Origin: Rhodospirillales bacterium
GTDB taxonomy: Bacteria; Pseudomonadota; Gammaproteobacteria; Nevskiales; Nevskiaceae
Length of the DNA: 52,271 bases
NCBI GenBank assembly: GCA_903970615.1
Contig: CAJCJH010000011.1
Location: 1-52,271 of the forward strand
Reading direction: 5' to 3'
The notes beneath the pieces are model-generated. The model saw only the letters and a program-made list of their open reading frames with translations. It did no database searches and had not been told where the DNA came from. The position numbers and the translations under genes are program-made. Shown here piece after piece: positions 15,465 to 25,399 of this stretch; the first letter of the stretch is position 1; the number at the start of each line of letters is the position of its first letter.

Positions 15465-15617
15465 CTTGAAGCCTTAACCGCAACCTGGCTCTAGCCAGTT
15501 GAGTCGATAGCCGTTGATCGAGTCTCTTGGTTCTCCATTGGGAACCGAGCTTGTTCTCATCCGGTGCAGTTGGCCGCGAACTGTGTTCGCATTTCCAGAT
15601 TTGTTCGAGGGATTTTC

Positions 15618-18089
15618 ATGAATCATTTTCTATTGCTTGTAGCGCGGCTGTTTTTGCGCCGCTCAACTGTGGTTTGCTGCTTATGTATCTCAGCGGGTGG
15701 GATATCCACTGTTGGCATTGCCGCCGATAAGCCTGTAACGACTACGACCGGAAGTGAAGGTATTGTCGAAGGTATTATTCTGGATGGCAGTGGCAAGCCG
15801 CTGGTCTCCGCAAAAGTGCAGCTAGAGAATGCTTCCGGGAAAGTCATCGCGCAGGTGCAAACCGATAGCAAGGGAGCCTTCACGATCTCCGATATTGCGC
15901 CGGGAATATATTCTGTTAACGCTGAAAAATCTGGCAGTTTTGGCAGTGTCGAAGTTCAGATAAATGCCGGTGAAGCCAGCAAGACCCAACTGAGCTTGGA
16001 GGACAGGCAACTGCAAACAGTCTCGGTCACCGCGAAGCGTTTCGATCGCGCCCGCAATGCTCTGTCGCCTTCCACGGGCAGCAGTCAATACACCTTCAAT
16101 GAGAAGGCGATTGAGGACTTGCCGGAAGGCGATCACACCGCGTTCAACCACGTGCTGTTACAGGCACCGGGTGTGGCGAACGACCAGCAAGGACAACTTC
16201 ATATTCGCGGCGATCATAACGATATCCAGTACCGGCTCAATGGAATCATATTGCCGGATGGCACCAGCGGGTTCGGACAGGTGCTCGATCCGAGATTCGC
16301 AAAAAGCATTACTTTGAACACCGGTGCGTTGCCGGCGGAGTATGGCTTGCGTACCGCCGGTGTGATCGACATCGTGACCAAGGACCAGGTGAATGGTGGC
16401 GATGTGGATATTTATGGCGGTAGCCACAACACTCTCAATCCAAGTTTCCAGATCGGCAAGACCACCGGAAATTTCTCGTCTTATGTCACCGGACAATATC
16501 TGACCAACAATCTGGGCATCGAAAATCCGACCAGTTCGAGTAATGCCATTCACGACAATACCTTGCAGGGAAAGGGATTTGGATACTTTTCTTATCTCCT
16601 TAATAGCAACACCAAACTCAGTGCGATTCTGGCGGCGACTGGTGCGAGGCTTGAGATACCGGACAATCCCGGCCAGCCGGTCGATCCGAATGGCCTGTTC
16701 ACCAATCCCGCTTATTTCAATGATGCTGGCTATAGTTCAGCCTCTCTGAACGAGCGTCAATACGAGCGCAATCTCTATGGCATCCTGGCGCTGCAGGGTA
16801 TTGCCGGGGATGATCTGACTTACCAACTTGCAGTATTTAATCGCCAGAGCACGGTGCAATTCAAACCCGATCCGCTTGGCGATCTGGCATTTGATTACGC
16901 GGCTTCCGCGATCAAACGCAAAGCCACCGAACTGGGCACGCAGGGCGACCTGAGTTATCCATTGGCAGAGGCGCATACCTTGAGCGCCGGTTTTGCGATC
17001 ACCACCGAAAACATTCGTGCCGATAATAGCTCCACTGTTTTCCCAACCGATTCGGATGGAAATATCAGTGGCCCGCCGGAAACGATCGTCGATAATAATC
17101 CCAAGAACGGCAATACGCTGACCTCGCTCTACGTGCAGGATAAATGGGAAGTCGGCAAGAACCTGATCGTCAATTACGGTCTGCGCTATGACAAGGTCAA
17201 TGCCTTCGTCGAAGGCCAGCAACTGAGCCCGCGTTTGGGCTTGATCGACTATCTGACGCCGCGCACCACGATTCATGCGGGTTATGCCCGTTACTTCACG
17301 CCGCCGCCGAGCGAGCTGGTGGCCAACACCACTTTTGCGAAGTTTGCCAACACGACATTGGCCGCGCCCGTGAACGAGCCGGGCTGCACGCCAAGTGCGA
17401 GCGACGCCTGCGTACTGAATGATCCGGTGAAAATCGAACGATCTCATTACTTCGATGCCGGCGTTGTGCAGCAAATGACATCTTCTTATAACGTCGGACT
17501 GGATGCTTACTATCGCTATGCACGCAACCTGATCGATGAAGGTCAATTCGGCACGGCCTTGATCTATACCCCTTTCAATTATGAGCAGGGCCACGTCTAT
17601 GGTCTGGAATTGACCAATGCTTATCATCAGGGAAATTTATCGGCTTATCTCAATGCCGCACGTTCGGTTGCCCAGGCCATCAATAACATTTCGGCTCAAG
17701 CGATCGCCTTTCCCGATCCGGATGAAGCAGCTTATGTGAGCCAGCACTACATTTATCTGGATCACAGTCAGGCGCTGACGGTGTCGGGCGGTGCTTCTTA
17801 CCTGTGGTGGGGCACAACGCTCGGGATTGAAGGAACTTACGAAGACGGGCTCCGCGAAGGATTCGCCAACACCGGCAAGCTCAAGCCGAATGTGCAATTC
17901 GATCTTTCCTTGGCTCGATCAGTCCAGATCAGCGAGGCCTTAGGCAAGCTCGATTTGCGCTTGGCGGCACTCAATGTACTGGACCGCAAGAATGAAATCC
18001 GCGATGGCTCGGGCATCGGCGTTGCCGCGCCAGCGTGGGGACCACGCGCGGCAATCTATTTCGGAATTGCCAAGCCGTTCGCACTTTGA
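15618..18089 (+). CDS. TonB-dependent receptor with carboxypeptidase-regulatory-like N-terminal domain
   Basis: An 823-residue outer-membrane receptor. After a signal sequence (to about residue 35), residues 45-125 form a carboxypeptidase-regulatory-like beta-sandwich (VEGIILDGSGKPLVSAKVQL ... GAFTISDIAPGIYSV). A plug domain follows (ALSPSTGSSQYTFNEKAIE, HIRGDHNDIQYRLNGI, GLRTAGVIDIVT), and then a long barrel with typical strands such as KWEVGKNLIVNYGLRYD and SPRLGLIDYLTPRTTIHAGY. The start at 15618 follows GAGGGA by about 6 nt and removes an unlikely 18-residue extension. It is followed after 107 nt by a secreted globin-like protein and preceded by a DUF2946-like protein. The ligand is unknown; metal, haem or an organic compound are all open. 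Confidence 0.85.
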   Translation: MNHFLLLVARLFLRRSTVVCCLCISAGGISTVGIAADKPVTTTTGSEGIVEGIILDGSGKPLVSAKVQLENASGKVIAQVQTDSKGAFTISDIAPGIYSVNAEKSGSFGSVEVQINAGEASKTQLSLEDRQLQTVSVTAKRFDRARNALSPSTGSSQYTFNEKAIEDLPEGDHTAFNHVLLQAPGVANDQQGQLHIRGDHNDIQYRLNGIILPDGTSGFGQVLDPRFAKSITLNTGALPAEYGLRTAGVIDIVTKDQVNGGDVDIYGGSHNTLNPSFQIGKTTGNFSSYVTGQYLTNNLGIENPTSSSNAIHDNTLQGKGFGYFSYLLNSNTKLSAILAATGARLEIPDNPGQPVDPNGLFTNPAYFNDAGYSSASLNERQYERNLYGILALQGIAGDDLTYQLAVFNRQSTVQFKPDPLGDLAFDYAASAIKRKATELGTQGDLSYPLAEAHTLSAGFAITTENIRADNSSTVFPTDSDGNISGPPETIVDNNPKNGNTLTSLYVQDKWEVGKNLIVNYGLRYDKVNAFVEGQQLSPRLGLIDYLTPRTTIHAGYARYFTPPPSELVANTTFAKFANTTLAAPVNEPGCTPSASDACVLNDPVKIERSHYFDAGVVQQMTSSYNVGLDAYYRYARNLIDEGQFGTALIYTPFNYEQGHVYGLELTNAYHQGNLSAYLNAARSVAQAINNISAQAIAFPDPDEAAYVSQHYIYLDHSQALTVSGGASYLWWGTTLGIEGTYEDGLREGFANTGKLKPNVQFDLSLARSVQISEALGKLDLRLAALNVLDRKNEIRDGSGIGVAAPAWGPRAAIYFGIAKPFAL

Positions 18090-18196: not shown

Positions 18197-18772
18197 ATGA
18201 AAACCCGATTACACCGTTTCAAAATCCCGCAAGTTGCACTATTGGCTGCCGCTGCGTTATCGATAAGTGCAGTCCAGCCTGCTGCCGCCAGCATGTTCGA
18301 TTCCGGCTATGCACAGGAGCCGATCGGCGAGTACAAAGGCCTGTCGCAAGAGACCTTGAAATACCTCGGCGGTCCGCAGGGTCTGGCGCTTACCATCGAT
18401 ATTTTTTACGACACTGTGAAAGGCGATAACCGCATCAATCGTTTGATGGAGGGTGCCAGCGTCGAGCAGATGCGCGCGCAGAAAACCGCAATGGTGCAGA
18501 CCTTGATGGGCACGCCTTCGATCGCGCCCGGTACCCAGCAAACCGGCATCCGCCAATTGACGACAACGCAATACAACGCACTCGCCGAAGATTTGTATCT
18601 CGCAATGGAAACCACCCGCACGCCTTACTCGGTGCAGAATCGCGTGATGAGCAGCCTGAGTGCCTACACGCCAGCGTTCGTATCGGCGTATGTGCTCGGC
18701 CAGCCATCGGTGGATCAAGGTACGCTCAACGACCGGCTCGGCACGGTACAGGTCGGTCAGCCCGGTATCTGA
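18197..18772 (+). CDS. Exported truncated-globin-like protein lacking histidine
   Basis: A 191-residue protein with a signal peptide (VALLAAAALSISAV, cleavage near residues 31-33). The mature part reads like a group 1 truncated globin: YLGGPQGLALTIDIFYDTV matches the A/B helices, RLMEGASVEQMRAQKTAM the E helix, and QLTTTQYNALAEDL the F/G region. However, the residue aligning with the proximal His F8 is a Thr, and the whole mature chain contains neither histidine nor cysteine, so classical haem ligation is impossible. It might bind a ligand other than haem, bind haem without His, or act as a structural partner of the neighbouring TonB receptor. It starts 107 nt after that receptor and ends at a strong terminator. 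Gene confidence is high; fold assignment is moderate. Confidence 0.65.
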   Translation: MKTRLHRFKIPQVALLAAAALSISAVQPAAASMFDSGYAQEPIGEYKGLSQETLKYLGGPQGLALTIDIFYDTVKGDNRINRLMEGASVEQMRAQKTAMVQTLMGTPSIAPGTQQTGIRQLTTTQYNALAEDLYLAMETTRTPYSVQNRVMSSLSAYTPAFVSAYVLGQPSVDQGTLNDRLGTVQVGQPGI

Positions 18773-18827: not shown

Positions 18828-18966
18828 TTGGCCGATAATTCAAACGGCTATCGATTCGATCGAGCTTTTGCGCGTATCGTAATCAGACGAGATCACCCAC
18901 GGATCAGCGAATGATCAACACTCGATGGTCGATGGACCGAAACGTGATCGTCGCGGTCGAAGCCGT

Positions 18967-20409
18967 ATGAAAACTCGAACCTGTGATGTGGCCATCATCG
19001 GCGCCGGCAGCGCGGGGCTTTCGGCGCGCAGCGCTGCACTCGCCGCCGGTGCAAAAGTCTTGTTGATCGACCACGGACCTGGAGGAACGACTTGCGCGCG
19101 CGTCGGCTGCATGCCGTCGAAGCTGCTGCTGGCCGCCGCACACGCGGCGTATGCGGTACAGAACGCATATCGTTTCGGCGTTGGTGTCGCAGGCGGCATC
19201 GAAGTTGATGGTGCCGCGGTAATGGCTCGCGTACGCCGTGAGCGTGATCGTTTTGTCGCCGCCGTGTTGAAGACGGTTGAATCCTTGGGCAAAGACGAAA
19301 TGCTTCGTGGCAGCGCGCATTTCGATGGACCAACGCAACTCACCGTCGATTGCGAGGATGAGCGCGTTCGCGTCAAAGCACGCAGCATCATCATCGCAAC
19401 CGGCTCGTCATCGCGGTTTGTAAAGGCGCTCGAAAATGTGTCGCAGCGCGTGCTCACCAACGAAACGATTTTCGAGCTGCAAACGCTGCCGCGCTCGCTG
19501 GCGGTACTTGGCGGTGGTCCGCTGGGTCTCGAACTGGCGCAGGGCATGGCGCGGCTCGGTGTGAAAGTAGTGCTGTTCGATCAGGCCGATAAACTTGGCG
19601 GTCTGCGCGATCCGGCCACGCTGGATGCCGCCCGGAAAATTTTCAGCGAAGCGCTCGATCTACGCCTGAAAACCGAAATCCTAAGCGCGTGTGAAATCGA
19701 TTCCGGCGTGCAGCTGAACTGGCGCGATGTGGCCGGCGCTGAGCACGCGGAAAGTTTTGAATATGTGCTCGCCGCTGCTGGGCGTATGCCGAATCTGGCG
19801 AAGCTCGGCCTACAAAACTCCGGCCTTGTGCTCGATCAGCACGGCGTGCCGCGGTTCGATGCTAAGACGCTGCAATGCGGCGACAGCGCGGTGTTCATCG
19901 CCGGCGATGTCGATGCGGATCGGCCGGTGCTGCACGAAGCCTCGAACGAAGGTCGCGTTGCCGGCGCCAATGCCGCGCGCTATCCGAAAGTGGAATCCAG
20001 CCCGCGCATGACCCTGCTGGCGATTACGTTCAGCGATCCGAATATCGCAGCGATCGGCATAAGCTATTCGCAAGCCAAAGCCGCGAATGCGCTGATCGGC
20101 GAGGCCAGCTACGACGACCAGGGCCGCGCGAAAGTTTTTTTGCAGAACTCCGGCTTGATCCGGATTTATGGCGACGAAAACGGCTTGCTGCTCGGCGCGG
20201 AAATGATCGGCCCGGCGGTAGAGCATAGCGCGCATTTACTCGCCTGGTGCGTTCAGCAAAAACTCAAGGCCAGCGAGGTGCTGCGCTTTCCGTTTTACCA
20301 TCCGACCTTCGAGGAAGGGCTGCGCAGCTCGCTGCGCGATCTGTGCAAAAAGTCCGGCAGCCTGCATCGATCCGAACACGATGCGATCGCGTTTGGCCCC
20401 GCCGGCTGA
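18967..20409 (+). CDS. Dihydrolipoamide-dehydrogenase-like pyridine nucleotide-disulfide oxidoreductase
   Basis: A 480-residue flavoprotein. The FAD motif is VAIIGAGSAG near the N-terminus. The redox-active disulfide is TTCARVGCMPSK (Cys43, Cys48), where most lipoamide dehydrogenases have GGTCLNVGC. The NAD(P) motif is AVLGGGPLGLELAQ, the second FAD motif is VFIAGDVDAD, and the C-terminal HPTFEEGLR carries the catalytic His-Glu pair of the partner subunit. No mercury-binding vicinal cysteines are present at the C-terminus, arguing against MerA. It is not beside any 2-oxoacid dehydrogenase gene. Instead it converges, 12 nt apart, on an ergothioneine/transporter operon, so a role in thiol or disulfide reduction is plausible but unproven. 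The ATG at 18967 is chosen over 18925 because it begins directly before the FAD motif. Confidence 0.8.
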   Translation: MKTRTCDVAIIGAGSAGLSARSAALAAGAKVLLIDHGPGGTTCARVGCMPSKLLLAAAHAAYAVQNAYRFGVGVAGGIEVDGAAVMARVRRERDRFVAAVLKTVESLGKDEMLRGSAHFDGPTQLTVDCEDERVRVKARSIIIATGSSSRFVKALENVSQRVLTNETIFELQTLPRSLAVLGGGPLGLELAQGMARLGVKVVLFDQADKLGGLRDPATLDAARKIFSEALDLRLKTEILSACEIDSGVQLNWRDVAGAEHAESFEYVLAAAGRMPNLAKLGLQNSGLVLDQHGVPRFDAKTLQCGDSAVFIAGDVDADRPVLHEASNEGRVAGANAARYPKVESSPRMTLLAITFSDPNIAAIGISYSQAKAANALIGEASYDDQGRAKVFLQNSGLIRIYGDENGLLLGAEMIGPAVEHSAHLLAWCVQQKLKASEVLRFPFYHPTFEEGLRSSLRDLCKKSGSLHRSEHDAIAFGPAG

Positions 20410-20421
20410 TCGTCAAACCCG

Positions 20422-21927
20422 TTAACGAGCGCTGCGCTGATGGCGCGGTACTAGCAGCGCGCTGATCTGCGTAAAACCCGCTTGTACCAGCAGCGCGAGC
20501 ACTGCCGCCGGGATCGCGCCTTCCAGAATCAACTCGATGTTGCCGAGTCGCACGCCGGTCAAAATCGGTTGACCGTAACCGCCGGCGCCGATCAAGGCAC
20601 CTAGCGTTGCGGTGCCGACGTTGATGACTGCGGCGGTGCTGATGCCGGCAAAAATGGTCGCTTGCGCCAAGGGAAGTTCGATGCGCAGCAGGCGCACCTG
20701 CGCAGGCAGACCGAGTGCGCGCGCGGAGTCGCGCAGGTTCGCGTCGATACCGGTCAGTCCAGCGATGGTGTTGCGTACGATCGGCAACAGGCTATAAAAA
20801 AATAGTGCGGCGATTGCTGGCTTGGCGCCGATACCGAGGAAGGGAATCAGGAATACCAGCATCGCCAGCGATGGCACGGTTTGCAGAATCGACGTGAGTG
20901 CCAATATCCATTGGGACATTGCAGGACGACCCGCGGCGAAGATGCCCAGCGGCAGGCCGATCAACAACGCAAGCCCAAGCGAGATGCCGACCAGGTTCAG
21001 ATGTTCCAGCGTGCGTTGGCCGATGCGCAACATCAGCGACACGATTTTCGCGTGCGATTCCACCGGCGCGGCCTGACCCAGAAATTCTGCGGCGACGGCG
21101 CTTTCATCGCGGTGCTGTAATTTCACTTCTGCATTCATGTTGCGCATGTCCTCGACTGAAATGCGCTGACTCAGTTGCCTGATCGTCGCAGCGAGCGCCG
21201 GCTCACGCGCTGCGCTATCGAGCCGATATAACAGCACGGCGTCGTAGCGCGGAAAATATCCGCGGTCGTCGTTGAGTACGCGCAGATGATCTTCCGCGAT
21301 TTCCGCATCGGTGGTGTAAACGTCGATGACATCAACCGCGCGATCGTGTAGCGCGCGATACGCGAGATCGTGATCGAGACCGCGCAGTGCATTCGGCGCC
21401 AGTTCATACGCCGCGCGTAGGCCCGGCCAGCCATCGGCGCGATCGATGAATTCGTTGGAAAGTCCGAAGCGCAATTCCGGATGCGTGCGCAGATCAGATA
21501 GATTCGCCAGCTTCAATCGATCGCCAATTTCGCTGCTGACCGCAAGCGCATAACCATCTTCAAAACCCAGCGGTGCGCTGATGCCGATTCCGATCGTTGC
21601 GAGGCGCTGCCGCAAGACTTCGAGATCAGCGCGCGGCGGCAGATCGTGCAGCAATTCCTGAGTCAGCGTGCCGGTATATTCCGGATAAATATCGATCTGA
21701 TTTTGCAGCAGCGCCTGCCACAAAATCGCAGTGCCGCCGAGCGCGCGCCGATGCTCGATCTTCAAATTCTGTTGCTCGGCTTCGAGCCGGACGATCTCCG
21801 CCAGCACGACCGATTCGGTGAAATTCTTCGAGCCGACGACGAGACCACGTTGCGATATCGAATCCGCACAAGCCATATTGCATACGACGAGGCAGGGCAG
21901 CGCCAGCAGCATTTTCCAGTGGTTCAC
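20422..21927 (-). CDS. ABC transporter substrate-binding/permease fusion (OpuBC/EgtU-like), candidate ergothioneine transporter
   Basis: A 501-residue fusion: signal peptide (to about residue 22), an OpuC-type substrate-binding domain (about 28-290; GSKNFTESVVLAEI, ALGGTAILWQAL, DIYPEYTGTLTQEL, DVIDVYTTDAEI), then an inner-membrane permease domain (about 304-490) with TVPSLAMLVFLIP and the coupling segment DSARALGLP. It starts with GTG overlapping the ATPase stop (GTGA). Known EgtU and Helicobacter ProWX-type fusions place the permease first and the binding domain last; here the order is reversed. Family members carry glycine betaine, choline, carnitine or ergothioneine, all trimethylammonium compounds. 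Being the last gene of an egtB-egtD operon makes ergothioneine or hercynine the best guess. Confidence 0.8.
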   Translation of the reverse strand: MNHWKMLLALPCLVVCNMACADSISQRGLVVGSKNFTESVVLAEIVRLEAEQQNLKIEHRRALGGTAILWQALLQNQIDIYPEYTGTLTQELLHDLPPRADLEVLRQRLATIGIGISAPLGFEDGYALAVSSEIGDRLKLANLSDLRTHPELRFGLSNEFIDRADGWPGLRAAYELAPNALRGLDHDLAYRALHDRAVDVIDVYTTDAEIAEDHLRVLNDDRGYFPRYDAVLLYRLDSAAREPALAATIRQLSQRISVEDMRNMNAEVKLQHRDESAVAAEFLGQAAPVESHAKIVSLMLRIGQRTLEHLNLVGISLGLALLIGLPLGIFAAGRPAMSQWILALTSILQTVPSLAMLVFLIPFLGIGAKPAIAALFFYSLLPIVRNTIAGLTGIDANLRDSARALGLPAQVRLLRIELPLAQATIFAGISTAAVINVGTATLGALIGAGGYGQPILTGVRLGNIELILEGAIPAAVLALLVQAGFTQISALLVPRHQRSAR

Positions 21928-22724
21928 GCGGCGGGTAGCACTCGTTGCGCAGCGACGAAGCGGCTGACGAAATCATCGGCCGGTCGCTTGCGAAAATCCT
22001 GCAGCGTGCCGTCCTGAATGACGCGGCCGCTGCGCATCAGCACCAGTCGCGGCGCCAGAAATGCGGCTTCGGCGAGATCGTGCGTGACGACGATCACCGT
22101 TTTTGCGATTGCGGAAAATATCTTCAGCAGTTCATCCTGCAACTGATGACGAATGATCGGATCGAGCGCGCCCAGCGGCTCGTCGAGCAGCAGCACTGGA
22201 GGGTCGATTATCAGCGCACGCATCAAGGCCACGCGCTGCCGCTGGCCGCCGGAAAGTTCACCGGGATATCGCGCCAGCATCGGTGCATCCAGGTTCACCA
22301 GTTCGGCGAGTTCGCGGATGCGCGCATCGATCGCGGCCTGCGTCCAGCCCAGATAGCGAGGCAGCAACGCAAGATTCGCGGCAGCGCTCAAGTGCGGAAA
22401 CAGCCCGCCGCTCTGGATCACATAACCGCAGGCACGACGAATAGCGACTGCATTGTGCGGCCCGACCACGGCGTTATTGAAAATGATTTCGCCCTGATCT
22501 GGCCATTCGAGGCCGAGCAGTAATCGCAGTAGCGTCGACTTGCCCGAGCCGCTGCTGCCGACTAGAGCGGTGACCGAACCGGCTGCGAAGTCGAGCGTCA
22601 CGGAGTCGACCGCCGCGATATTTCCATATCGGCGCGTAACGTTGTCGAAGCCAAACGAAGCCGCTTCAGTCTCGCTTGATGCAGACGCGGTCGAGATCGA
22701 GTCGCCTGATGGATGCGCGTTCAA
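21924..22724 (-). CDS. ABC transporter ATPase (OpuBA/ProV/EgtV-like)
   Basis: A 266-residue nucleotide-binding subunit: Walker A GSSGSGKST (residues 57-64), Q-loop in YVIQSGGLFP, signature LSGGQ (157-161), Walker B LLLDEP (178-183), and the switch His in VVTHDLAEA. The sequence is typical of quaternary-amine importers (OpuBA/ProV) but lacks the C-terminal CBS domains of ProV. The only usable start is TTG at 22724, 24 nt after egtD and without a clear Shine-Dalgarno, so coupling to egtD translation is likely. It overlaps the fused permease gene by 4 nt. Together they form a complete two-gene importer like EgtV plus EgtU. Confidence 0.88.
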   Translation of the reverse strand: MNAHPSGDSISTASASSETEAASFGFDNVTRRYGNIAAVDSVTLDFAAGSVTALVGSSGSGKSTLLRLLLGLEWPDQGEIIFNNAVVGPHNAVAIRRACGYVIQSGGLFPHLSAAANLALLPRYLGWTQAAIDARIRELAELVNLDAPMLARYPGELSGGQRQRVALMRALIIDPPVLLLDEPLGALDPIIRHQLQDELLKIFSAIAKTVIVVTHDLAEAAFLAPRLVLMRSGRVIQDGTLQDFRKRPADDFVSRFVAAQRVLPAA

Positions 22725-22748
22725 TCGTCTGCAAACGGTTGATGAAGA

Positions 22749-23729
22749 TCAGGCCGCTTTCGCCAAGGTCTTGGTGCGCCCGATCGCGCTCCACCATTGC
22801 ACCGCAAATCGTTGCGCAGCATCGGTCCAGGTTTTGCTGGTGCGGAAGCCGCTGGTTTGCGCAAGATCGGCCAAGCCATCGAGCGTGTATTTGTAGGAAT
22901 TTTCGGTGTGGATAGTTTCTCCGCGCTGCATCGAAAAGCGCTGGCCGAAGATGCTGAATTCGTGCGCCCGTTTTGCCACCAGATGCATTTCGATGCGTCC
23001 GTGATGATGATCGTAGCGCGCCATGTGCTTGAAGGCATTGACCTGGAAATCAGCGCCGAAATCCCGGTTCAATCGTGCCAATAAATTCAGGTTGAACTCA
23101 GCGGTAACACCGGCGGCATCGTCATAAGCGGCTTCGAGTTCGGCGGGATCTTTTTGCAGATCCGCACCGATCAAAAGGCCACCGTCGTTACCGACCAATT
23201 GCCGGATGTTACGCAACAGTTGCGTCGCGGCAGTCGGCTCGAAATTGCCCAGCGTCGAGCCGGGAAAATAAACCGCGGTGAGCCGCGATTCGACCGTTTC
23301 CTGCGGCAACGTCAGGGCTTCGGTGAAATCGGCAACCAGCGGCTCGATCGGAAACCGGGTGTAGTTCTGCGCCAGTTCGCGCGCGGTTTTGTGCAGGTGT
23401 TCTCCGGAGATATCGACCGGCACATACGCGGCGGCGTCGAGTTGATCGAGCAGCAGGCGCGTCTTCACACTGCTGCCACTGCCGAATTCCACCAGCCGCA
23501 CTTTGCTACCGAGAATCTGAGCCATTTCGCCCGCATGTGTTTGCATGATCGCGCGCTCGGTGCGGGTGACGTAATACTCAGGCAGTTCGCAAATCTGGTC
23601 GAACAATTCAGAGCCGCGCGCATCGTAAAAATATTTCGACGGCAGACGTTTCTGCGCTGCTTCCAGACCCCGCAGAATTTCATTGCACTCGGCATCGCGG
23701 AAGCGCCGCGGCGCATCACCCTGATCCAT
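22749..23729 (-). CDS. egtD: L-histidine N(alpha)-methyltransferase EgtD
   Basis: A 326-residue SAM-dependent methyltransferase that trimethylates histidine to hercynine, the first step of ergothioneine synthesis. Diagnostic segments are LPSKYFYDARGSELFDQI and LPEYYVTRTERAI near the N-terminus, LVEFGSGSSVKT (SAM loop), YVPVDIS, AVYFPGSTLGNF and the C-terminal TENSYKYTLDGL. The ATG at 23729 has AGAGGAGA 6-7 nt upstream; a longer frame back to 23888 would overlap egtB and is rejected. It sits 64 nt after egtB in the same operon. Confidence 0.93.
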   Translation of the reverse strand: MDQGDAPRRFRDAECNEILRGLEAAQKRLPSKYFYDARGSELFDQICELPEYYVTRTERAIMQTHAGEMAQILGSKVRLVEFGSGSSVKTRLLLDQLDAAAYVPVDISGEHLHKTARELAQNYTRFPIEPLVADFTEALTLPQETVESRLTAVYFPGSTLGNFEPTAATQLLRNIRQLVGNDGGLLIGADLQKDPAELEAAYDDAAGVTAEFNLNLLARLNRDFGADFQVNAFKHMARYDHHHGRIEMHLVAKRAHEFSIFGQRFSMQRGETIHTENSYKYTLDGLADLAQTSGFRTSKTWTDAAQRFAVQWWSAIGRTKTLAKAA

Positions 23730-23793
23730 CAGTTTTCTCCTCTTGAAACGGTGGCCACGCGAGCAGAGGTGCGCGCATGAGTTTTTGCGCCGA

Positions 23794-25080
23794 TCAGCTA
23801 ACGTCCTGCGCCAGACGAATTCCGGAAAATTGCCAGCGCGCGTCCGGATAAAAAAAATTGCGATAGCTGGCGCGCAAATGATCCGCATGCGAAACGCAAG
23901 AGCCGCCGCGCAACACCATCTGGTTGCTCATGAATTTTCCGTTGTATTCGCCGACTGCGCCCGCTGCGGCGCGAAAGCCCGGATAGGGCAGGTAGGCGCT
24001 GCCGGTCCATTCCCAGACATCGCCAAAAAATTGATGCAGTCGCGGGATGTCTTGCGTCTGTGCATGCGCTGTTGGCTGCAGGAAATCCTCGTCGACAAAA
24101 TTTCCACTCACCGGCAAGTCATTCGCACTGGCTTCCCATTCGACTTCGGTGGGCAATCTCGCGCCGGCCCATCGCGCATAGGCATCGGCTTCGTAAAAAC
24201 TGATATGGGAGACCGGCGCGGAGTCGATCAAGGCCTGCGTGCCGCCGAGTGAGAACGAGGCTTGCAGATCGTCATGCCAGTACAACGGCTGTTGCCAACC
24301 GCGCGACTGCACCTGCGCCCAGCCATCGGACAGCCAGAAGTCGGCGCGACGATAACCGTCATCGCGGATGAATTCGCGGTATTCGGCATTGCTGACCGGC
24401 CGGTCAGCAATGCGATGTGCCTGCAGCAATTGCGTGTGGCGCGGCGTTTCATTGTCGAACGAAAACCCTGCGCCAGCATGGCCGATTTCGATGAGACCTT
24501 CGGCGACTTCATGAAAACGCATCGGCTGAAGCGGCCTGTTCTGCGGTGTTTTCAGATCGGTGCGATAGGCCGGCTGCAAGGGATTCTGGAACAGCAGATG
24601 CTTCACATCGGTCAGCAATAATTCCTGATGCTGACGTTCGTGATGCAGGCCGAGTTCTAGTAGTGCGCGCGCATCGTCGTCGAGTCCGCCAGACAACCAT
24701 TCGCCGAGTGCCGTATCCACCTGCGCGCGATAAGCGAGCACCTCGGATAGCGAAGGCCGCGTCAGCAAACCCCGCGCCGGCCGTGGATGACGCGCGCCCA
24801 GCGATTCGTAATAAGAGTTGAAAAGCAGACCGAATTGCGGGTCGAATTCACGATAGTCGCGGACATATCGGCGCAACAGAAAAGTCTCGAAAAACCAGGT
24901 CGTATGTGCCAGATGCCACTTTACCGGCGAGGCATCCGGCATCGATTGCGCACCGCAATCTTCCGGCGAAAGCGGCTCAGCCAAAGCCTGAGTCAAGCCG
25001 CGCACCTGCATCGTATACGCCGCCAGATCAGGCGCCCGCAGGCTCGAAGAAGGGCTTCGCACCGCGGTGCTGAGCGTCAC
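23794..25080 (-). CDS. egtB: Ergothioneine biosynthesis sulfoxide synthase EgtB
   Basis: A 428-residue non-haem iron enzyme joining hercynine to a cysteine or gamma-glutamylcysteine thiol with O2. The N-terminal DinB-like domain carries iron-ligand histidines: WHLAHTTWFFETF (His59) and HERQHQELLLTD (His147, His151). The C-terminal half is a formylglycine-generating-enzyme-like domain ending in FGDVWEWTGSAYLPYPGF and LRGGSCVSHADHLRASYRN. The GTG start at 25080 has GGAG 7-8 nt upstream. No egtC or egtE is seen nearby, so either cysteine is used directly or the amidohydrolase and C-S lyase lie elsewhere. It is the first gene of a four-gene operon with egtD and an ABC transporter. Confidence 0.92.
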   Translation of the reverse strand: MTLSTAVRSPSSSLRAPDLAAYTMQVRGLTQALAEPLSPEDCGAQSMPDASPVKWHLAHTTWFFETFLLRRYVRDYREFDPQFGLLFNSYYESLGARHPRPARGLLTRPSLSEVLAYRAQVDTALGEWLSGGLDDDARALLELGLHHERQHQELLLTDVKHLLFQNPLQPAYRTDLKTPQNRPLQPMRFHEVAEGLIEIGHAGAGFSFDNETPRHTQLLQAHRIADRPVSNAEYREFIRDDGYRRADFWLSDGWAQVQSRGWQQPLYWHDDLQASFSLGGTQALIDSAPVSHISFYEADAYARWAGARLPTEVEWEASANDLPVSGNFVDEDFLQPTAHAQTQDIPRLHQFFGDVWEWTGSAYLPYPGFRAAAGAVGEYNGKFMSNQMVLRGGSCVSHADHLRASYRNFFYPDARWQFSGIRLAQDVS

Positions 25081-25399
25081 GTTGACTCCAGGTTATTGAT
25101 GCCGCTGCGACGATCGTACCGTCGCGGAATAAGCTTATGACCTTGCCGCATGTTTAGTGTTCCACAGCTTCGAGTGACGCGCGCGGTTCGGCTTCGAACT
25201 CATGTACGGATGAGCATGAAATCGGGACGCTGCGAGAGGCTGGATTTTGTTGCTGTGCTGAATGGCCATGAATTGCTTCCGGTCAATTTGATCGCGCGAA
25301 TTGTCGGCGGATGGTTTGAGTCTCGGCTCCAGACTCAGCATGGAATAGGGTTTTAACAAACGCAGGCTCACGGTAGATGCAGGCTCCCAATCCGAGCCG
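25081..25399. other. Intergenic region between egtB and prpR
   Basis: About 320 nt between the start of the ergothioneine operon and the 3' end of prpR. It must hold the egtB promoter on the minus strand. Short frames on both strands lack ribosome-binding sites and family resemblance. I see no strong hairpin, repeat or RNA element here. Confidence 0.5.

Follow-up and report, generated by a model that had tools for sequence, protein, structure and literature searches.

The window analysed here is a stretch of 52,271 nucleotides (contig CAJCJH010000011.1 of assembly GCA_903970615.1) from a bacterium of the family Nevskiaceae. Its minus strand carries the genes egtB and egtD of ergothioneine synthesis, followed by an ATP-binding cassette (ABC) ATPase and a protein in which a substrate-binding domain is fused to a permease. 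We consider it rather probable, from the gene content and its recurrence in other genomes, that the ATPase and the fusion form an importer of ergothioneine-type trimethylhistidine betaines, serving both recapture and scavenging. The strongest argument for such a ligand is that relatives of the fusion are encoded beside three biosynthetic routes, which have in common EgtD and the trimethylhistidine scaffold. We infer that ergothioneine or hercynine is the compound transported.

EgtB and EgtD both exceed the curated NCBI cut-offs that define the aerobic ergothioneine pathway, and the PF04069 binding domain, PF00528 permease and matching ATPase identify an OpuAC-type importer (Table 1). The coordinates confirm the initial annotation, which described four genes running in one direction, with intergenic gaps of 64 nt (egtB-egtD), 24 nt (egtD-ATPase) and -4 nt (ATPase-fusion, a 4-nt overlap). 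They also bear out the N-terminal position of the binding domain within the fusion (PF04069, residues 29–284, precedes PF00528, residues 324–495). The start of egtD was placed at the ATG at 23729; the automatic open reading frame (ORF) opens earlier, at 23888, within egtB. The TTG start of the ATPase is the least certain of the four, and the fusion may begin with a GTG at 21927 or an ATG at 21912. The fusion is the sole match at E ≤ 0.001 in its own genome, and the NCBIfam models nearest to it (OsmF, choline and ProW) all score far below their cut-offs. It is present in 12 of 61 related genomes, the window's genome included. Six of these 12 have the order egtB-egtD-ATPase-fusion; in the other six, no egt gene was found in the retrieved sequence that flanks the ATPase and fusion genes. 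The four-gene arrangement is not due to chance, because the same genes occur in the same order in five other related genomes, and the four are presumably transcribed together as an operon. Scanning the operon for promoter and terminator consensus sequences was uninformative and gave no sigma-70 consensus site in the gap 5' of egtB.

Table 1. Coordinates of the operon genes, of the segments of the fusion protein and of the upstream gap
Feature	Coordinates	Strand	Evidence
egtB, sulfoxide synthase of aerobic ergothioneine synthesis, 428 residues	23794..25080	-	GTG start; TIGR03440 567 bits (cut-off 360); PF12867 and PF03781
egtD, histidine N-alpha-trimethyltransferase (hercynine maker), 326 residues	22749..23729	-	ATG start; TIGR03438 404 bits (cut-off 290.9); PF10017 380 bits
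ABC ATPase, 266 residues	21924..22724	-	PF00005; Walker A GSSGSGKS, signature LSGGQRQR and LLLLDEP, by eye from the translation
Fused substrate-binding domain/permease, 501 residues	20422..21927	-	PF04069 then PF00528 in a single frame; AlphaFold2 mean pLDDT 91.5
Signal sequence of the fusion, residues 1–24	21856..21927	-	Hydrophobic 6–24; helix 3–21 in model; cleavage presumed
Periplasmic substrate-binding domain, residues 25–286	21070..21855	-	AfProX 1sw2 149.6 bits; Helicobacter pylori 8dp6 141.7 bits; Foldseek top hit 8dp6
Short linker and five-helix permease, residues 287–501	20425..21069	-	PF00528; hydrophobic stretches; helices from 291–332 to 464–492
Gap 5' of egtB, probable operon promoter region	25081..25399	-	319 nt; promoter presumed

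The association with EgtD extends well beyond these genomes. A scan of named genomes returned at least 580 relatives, and the best 80 were examined further (the 80 named loci). In 30 of them the fusion has an EgtD homologue (tblastn) no more than 6 kb away, where about 0.3 linked loci would be expected under random placement in a 4-Mb genome. A further 30 show no such linkage, with 4.5 kb or more of sequence on each side, and 20 could not be judged. The position of EgtD in the linked loci is downstream and codirectional (17), upstream and codirectional (7), upstream and divergent (4) or downstream and convergent (2). An EgtB homologue accompanies 23 of the 30 (tblastn; L130 and L144 are excluded since their match is SenA). 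In a rapidly built tree of 110 fusions, 107 of them distinct, 69 rows were scored and the linked state changes at least 12 times, gains and losses being inseparable. In an unbiased clustering of 766 neighbouring ORFs, only the two genes of the transporter itself ranked above EgtD (25 loci) and EgtB (14 loci). Below these came reverse-strand ORFs that apparently lie across the transporter genes (10 and 9 loci), together with an aminotransferase cluster centred on Xanthomonas (10 loci). Record titles among the 80 loci include Xanthomonas, Rhodanobacter, Myxococcota, Planctomycetota, Bacteroidota and Scalindua, among others. Phyla were not counted from these titles because some metagenome titles look wrong: those of L073 (Verrucomicrobia), L074 (Eremiobacteraeota) and L110 (Nitrospirota) conflict with the fusion tree or with the contig's genome, L073 being a contig of the window's genus and the L110 fusion grouping with Gammaproteobacteria.

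The fusion and EgtD also occur together at the level of whole genomes. EgtD scores above the cut-off in all 12 fusion-bearing relatives of the window's genome versus 33 of the 49 others (Fisher p 0.017), and of the 48 named loci where linkage is absent or could not be judged, 41 have EgtD elsewhere in the genome (43 of 50 when the linked L112 and L134 are included). The effect is very strong in Planctomycetota (246 genomes; EgtD at E ≤ 1e-50), where EgtD is present in 26 of 27 genomes with the fusion versus 32 of 219 others (p 6e-18) and eight of the 27 fusions lie within 3.4 kb of it. The match in G533 is a fragment under the EgtD cut-off. The 27 are binding-domain-first fusions found in one match (partial in G698). 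In Gammaproteobacteria (369 genomes; EgtD at E ≤ 1e-60), the corresponding figures are 17 of 22 and 115 of 347 (p 5e-5). Weaker matches of other architecture in the two class searches are accompanied by EgtD in only one of nine cases (G514, G585, G589, G635, G678, G555, G064, G289 and G329, with only a binding-domain match listed for G585, G589, G635 and G555). G593 matches more weakly, in two pieces of a single frame; it is outside both the fusion count and these nine, has EgtD and is counted in the 32. The direct genomic tie to egtB and egtD put forward in the initial annotation is thus real and recurs in distant lineages, with strong genome-level co-occurrence. Conserved linkage in relatives, on which that annotation had made its proposal depend, is present and patchy.

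The three routes found beside the fusion share EgtD and proceed through EgtB, a putative anaerobic molybdopterin-type ergothioneine synthase or SenA/SenB (selenoneine). Three Candidatus Scalindua contigs (L118:7616-9933, L124:561-5128 and L126:7640-12556) encode EgtD and then a large protein beside the transporter. The complete protein (L124 and L126) is a molybdopterin oxidoreductase fused to a C-terminal class-V aminotransferase/cysteine desulfurase (PF00384, PF01568 and PF00266); this enzyme is absent from the rest of the 80 loci, Scalindua being a single genus. In domain architecture, and in standing beside EgtD, it corresponds to the metallopterin-dependent ergothioneine synthase (MES) of Caldithrix abyssi (PMC9516567). 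This suggests that anammox bacteria such as Scalindua may produce ergothioneine. SenA and SenB, above their NCBI cut-offs, stand with EgtD next to the fusion in L130, L144 and L213. L144:5899-10598, from a Marinimicrobia bin, is a selenoneine-type operon consisting of the fusion gene, SenA (with a 4-nt overlap with the fusion gene) and a SenB-EgtD fusion of 649 residues. A broader reading, which we advance only tentatively, is that the binding-domain-first fusion may be the import arm of Gram-negative trimethylhistidine-betaine metabolism, with one pocket for ergothioneine, selenoneine and perhaps hercynine that would serve the aerobic, anaerobic and selenium-inserting routes, which would make it the first importer to be linked with the biosynthesis of selenoneine.

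An AlphaFold2 model of the fusion, built on a 50-row alignment, has a predicted template modelling score (pTM) of 0.80 (mean predicted local distance difference test score, pLDDT, in Table 1). It displays a helix at residues 3–21, a domain extending to about residue 282 that matches two-lobed binding proteins, and a 42-residue helix (291–332) that enters the permease. The hydropathy profile contains the signal stretch and five further hydrophobic stretches after merging of overlaps. In L174, a permease-first protein of a different genome in the sample, a further hydrophobic stretch (222–240) lies between permease and binding domain. Domain order plausibly fixes the topology, judging from one model and two sequences: since a five-helix permease would have its N-terminus outside, no extra helix is needed in the binding-domain-first fusion, and the layout with the binding domain last would need a sixth helix. 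The initial annotation stressed the reversed order, which is not peculiar to this operon. The binding domain comes first, in one frame, in all 80 named loci, and the amino-acid importer GlnPQ likewise carries its binding domains N-terminal to the permease, although it has two of them and amino-acid ligands (PMC8025302). Domain order was therefore dropped as the main novelty; the argument from linkage is stronger, and the emphasis on reversed order weaker, than first annotated. No relative turned up when viral contigs were searched with the binding domain. In the literature searched, which did not cover the H. pylori transporter or the OpuF gene-neighbour analyses, no ligand is assigned to the binding-domain-first family.

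A close precedent is EgtU of Streptococcus pneumoniae (pneumococcus) and other Firmicutes (PMC9732360), which resembles the window's transporter in having an OpuAC-type domain fused to a permease, a separate ATPase, an aromatic cage and a Lys/Thr/Arg carboxylate clamp. Its binding domain (residues 233–506) is C-terminal, whereas that of the window and the 80 named loci is N-terminal, and it is described there from bacteria that do not make ergothioneine, whereas the window's transporter adjoins biosynthetic genes. The fusion pocket was compared with the residues listed in that source, with AfProX of Archaeoglobus fulgidus (1sw1 and 1sw2) and with H. pylori EgtU (8dp6 and 8dp7); pneumococcal residues were mapped via AfProX rather than by direct alignment with the EgtU sequence. 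Ten residues are invariant in 110 of 110 fusions: K34, F36, Y84, T87, F122, Y126, E159, R163, Y204 and Y228. Among them are counterparts of the EgtU cage (Y341, Y419 and Y443, here Y126, Y204 and Y228) and of its clamp (K242, T296, R379 and E375, here K34, T87, R163 and E159). The pneumococcal signature G244, F293 and Y337, by contrast, is replaced by F36, Y84 and F122 throughout. Position 124, equivalent to EgtU N339 and AfProX D109, is Asn in 90 and Asp in 20 of the 110 fusions; the window has Asp and so retains the AfProX residue. By these sequence comparisons, the fusion is not an EgtU of the pneumococcal type, because the domain order and signature residues examined both differ, and it probably works like EgtU all the same.

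H. pylori EgtU, the nearest solved structure (31.8% identity over 261 positions), also lacks the pneumococcal signature. Its ergothioneine-bound form (8dp7) has Tyr and Phe at the pneumococcal F293 and Y337 switch positions, as in the window, and a non-glycine residue at G244; Ser and Phe occupy the positions of F36 and Y204 of the fusion family. AfProX, a betaine-binding protein, shares 33.0% identity over 261 positions and all ten pocket residues. It differs from the fusion family at the family-invariant residues W167, H186, E91 and F225; W167 and H186 differ in H. pylori EgtU as well. As a test of the ligand, the pocket proved non-diagnostic: none of the ten key residues distinguishes the 35 linked from the 35 unlinked fusions (one of the latter, L033, sits on a short contig and was left out of the scoring on the tree). 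This sameness, and the lack of the pneumococcal signature in H. pylori EgtU, mean that the pocket residues do not identify the ligand. A Foldseek search with the model placed H. pylori EgtU, free (8dp6) and ergothioneine-bound (8dp7), nearest by a small margin, and was rejected as an indicator of the ligand since the margins that separate EgtU from AfProX and from nicotinic-ligand sensor proteins are too narrow.

Several observations weigh against an ergothioneine-type ligand. A rival explanation, which we regard as unlikely, is a glycine betaine or osmoprotectant importer that stands beside egt genes on account of common stress regulation or the supply of methyl groups rather than of its ligand. 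The initial annotation had named a match to the betaine/choline aromatic box, together with a lack of ergothioneine affinity, as evidence against its proposal; the first half of this holds, for the ten pocket positions are those of AfProX in 110 of 110 fusions. AfProX is also the best match in the PDB by sequence score, nearer than either EgtU (Table 1), and the nearest NCBIfam names are of the osmoprotectant kind noted above, all far below cut-off. F36 occupies the place of pneumococcal G244, where a G244F substitution is reported to weaken ergothioneine binding about 100-fold and destabilize the protein without abolishing binding (PMC9732360). The pocket, then, allows ergothioneine without proving it, which is the main weakness of the case. 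However, ergothioneine is itself a betaine that the same cage and carboxylate clamp would grip, and H. pylori EgtU, solved with ergothioneine bound, has the same Tyr and Phe. A betaine importer would also leave the very strong co-occurrence with EgtD in Planctomycetota to be explained, as well as the ranking of EgtD and EgtB as the most widely recurring clusters near the 80 loci, whose neighbours were not scanned by name for betaine-metabolism genes. It is improbable, in our estimate, that the importer is instead dedicated to hercynine (N-trimethylhistidine), the intermediate of all linked routes, rather than to the sulfur product. What the EgtB, MES and SenA/SenB clusters all share is indeed EgtD and hercynine, and F36 could cost contacts on the sulfur side (PMC9732360); but the linked clusters encode EgtD and hence make their own hercynine, and known EgtU domains discriminate against it (PMC9732360).

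The remaining objections concern the statistics. The 80 named loci were the top scorers against a seed of 12 rows, half of them linked to egt genes, and ten of the 30 linked loci belong to Xanthomonas or Pseudoxanthomonas. The Fisher tests ignore kinship. In the Gammaproteobacteria sample only one of 22 fusions, the window's own copy, lies near EgtD, so that co-occurrence there is almost without linkage. EgtD was not detected in five of these 22 genomes or in seven of the 48 named genomes, some of which may be incomplete, and 115 of the 132 EgtD-bearing Gammaproteobacteria sampled are without a detected fusion; some fusions may have been missed because few candidates were scored per genome (at most four in Gammaproteobacteria and six in Planctomycetota). 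The disregard of kinship, the scarcity of linkage in the Gammaproteobacteria sample and the share of Xanthomonas and Pseudoxanthomonas would suit the view that linkage follows from common ancestry or from genome type (large environmental genomes) and has no functional meaning. We give this view very little credence, since the linked state is scattered over the tree in four gene arrangements, Scalindua is linked with a different sulfur enzyme, and the few matches of other architecture lack the association with EgtD. An importer of ergothioneine-type betaines remains the reading that we prefer.

Additional genes were noted near the transporter. In the Xanthomonas-centred cluster (nine of its ten loci being Xanthomonas), a class-V aminotransferase (PF00266; for example L081:7566-8747) lies in reverse orientation between the transporter and egtB. 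It was rejected as EgtE (36 bits versus a cut-off of 400) and may be a divergent C-S lyase belonging to the pathway. At L085:7379-8194, an S-adenosylmethionine (SAM)-methyltransferase-like gene (PF13489) overlaps the transporter gene at its end, and ORFs of L096, L110 and L116 fall into the same cluster. In the window, an ORF read by eye as prpR-like ends 319 nt upstream of egtB. Downstream of the operon and convergent with it is a stand-alone dihydrolipoyl-dehydrogenase-like gene (18925-20409; NF004939, 572 bits), a neighbour also present in relatives L031 and L032. Farther along, a 191-residue exported-looking protein (18197-18772), truncated-haemoglobin-like by eye and without a Pfam match, adjoins a TonB-dependent receptor (15564-18089).

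In the proposed system, EgtD would trimethylate histidine and EgtB would add sulfur, so that the operon would make ergothioneine. The signal sequence would export the binding domain, which would be tethered right above the first permease helix, and two fused chains with two ATPases would make up the transporter. The importer would capture periplasmic ergothioneine, and probably also hercynine and selenoneine, and return it to the cytoplasm, for recapture of leaked product and scavenging of ergothioneine from outside. A comparable role, the recapture of a leaked self-made solute, is ascribed to the ectoine transporter TeaABC, of the different TRAP (tripartite ATP-independent periplasmic) class. 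If the inference holds, the residues compared would not tell an ergothioneine pocket apart from one for betaine, which is a sharp and readily testable prediction. An importer family in ergothioneine producers would, if confirmed, mean that producers recapture or trade ergothioneine; "glycine betaine" annotations in many genomes would need correcting, and a genomic handle on selenoneine uptake would be at hand.

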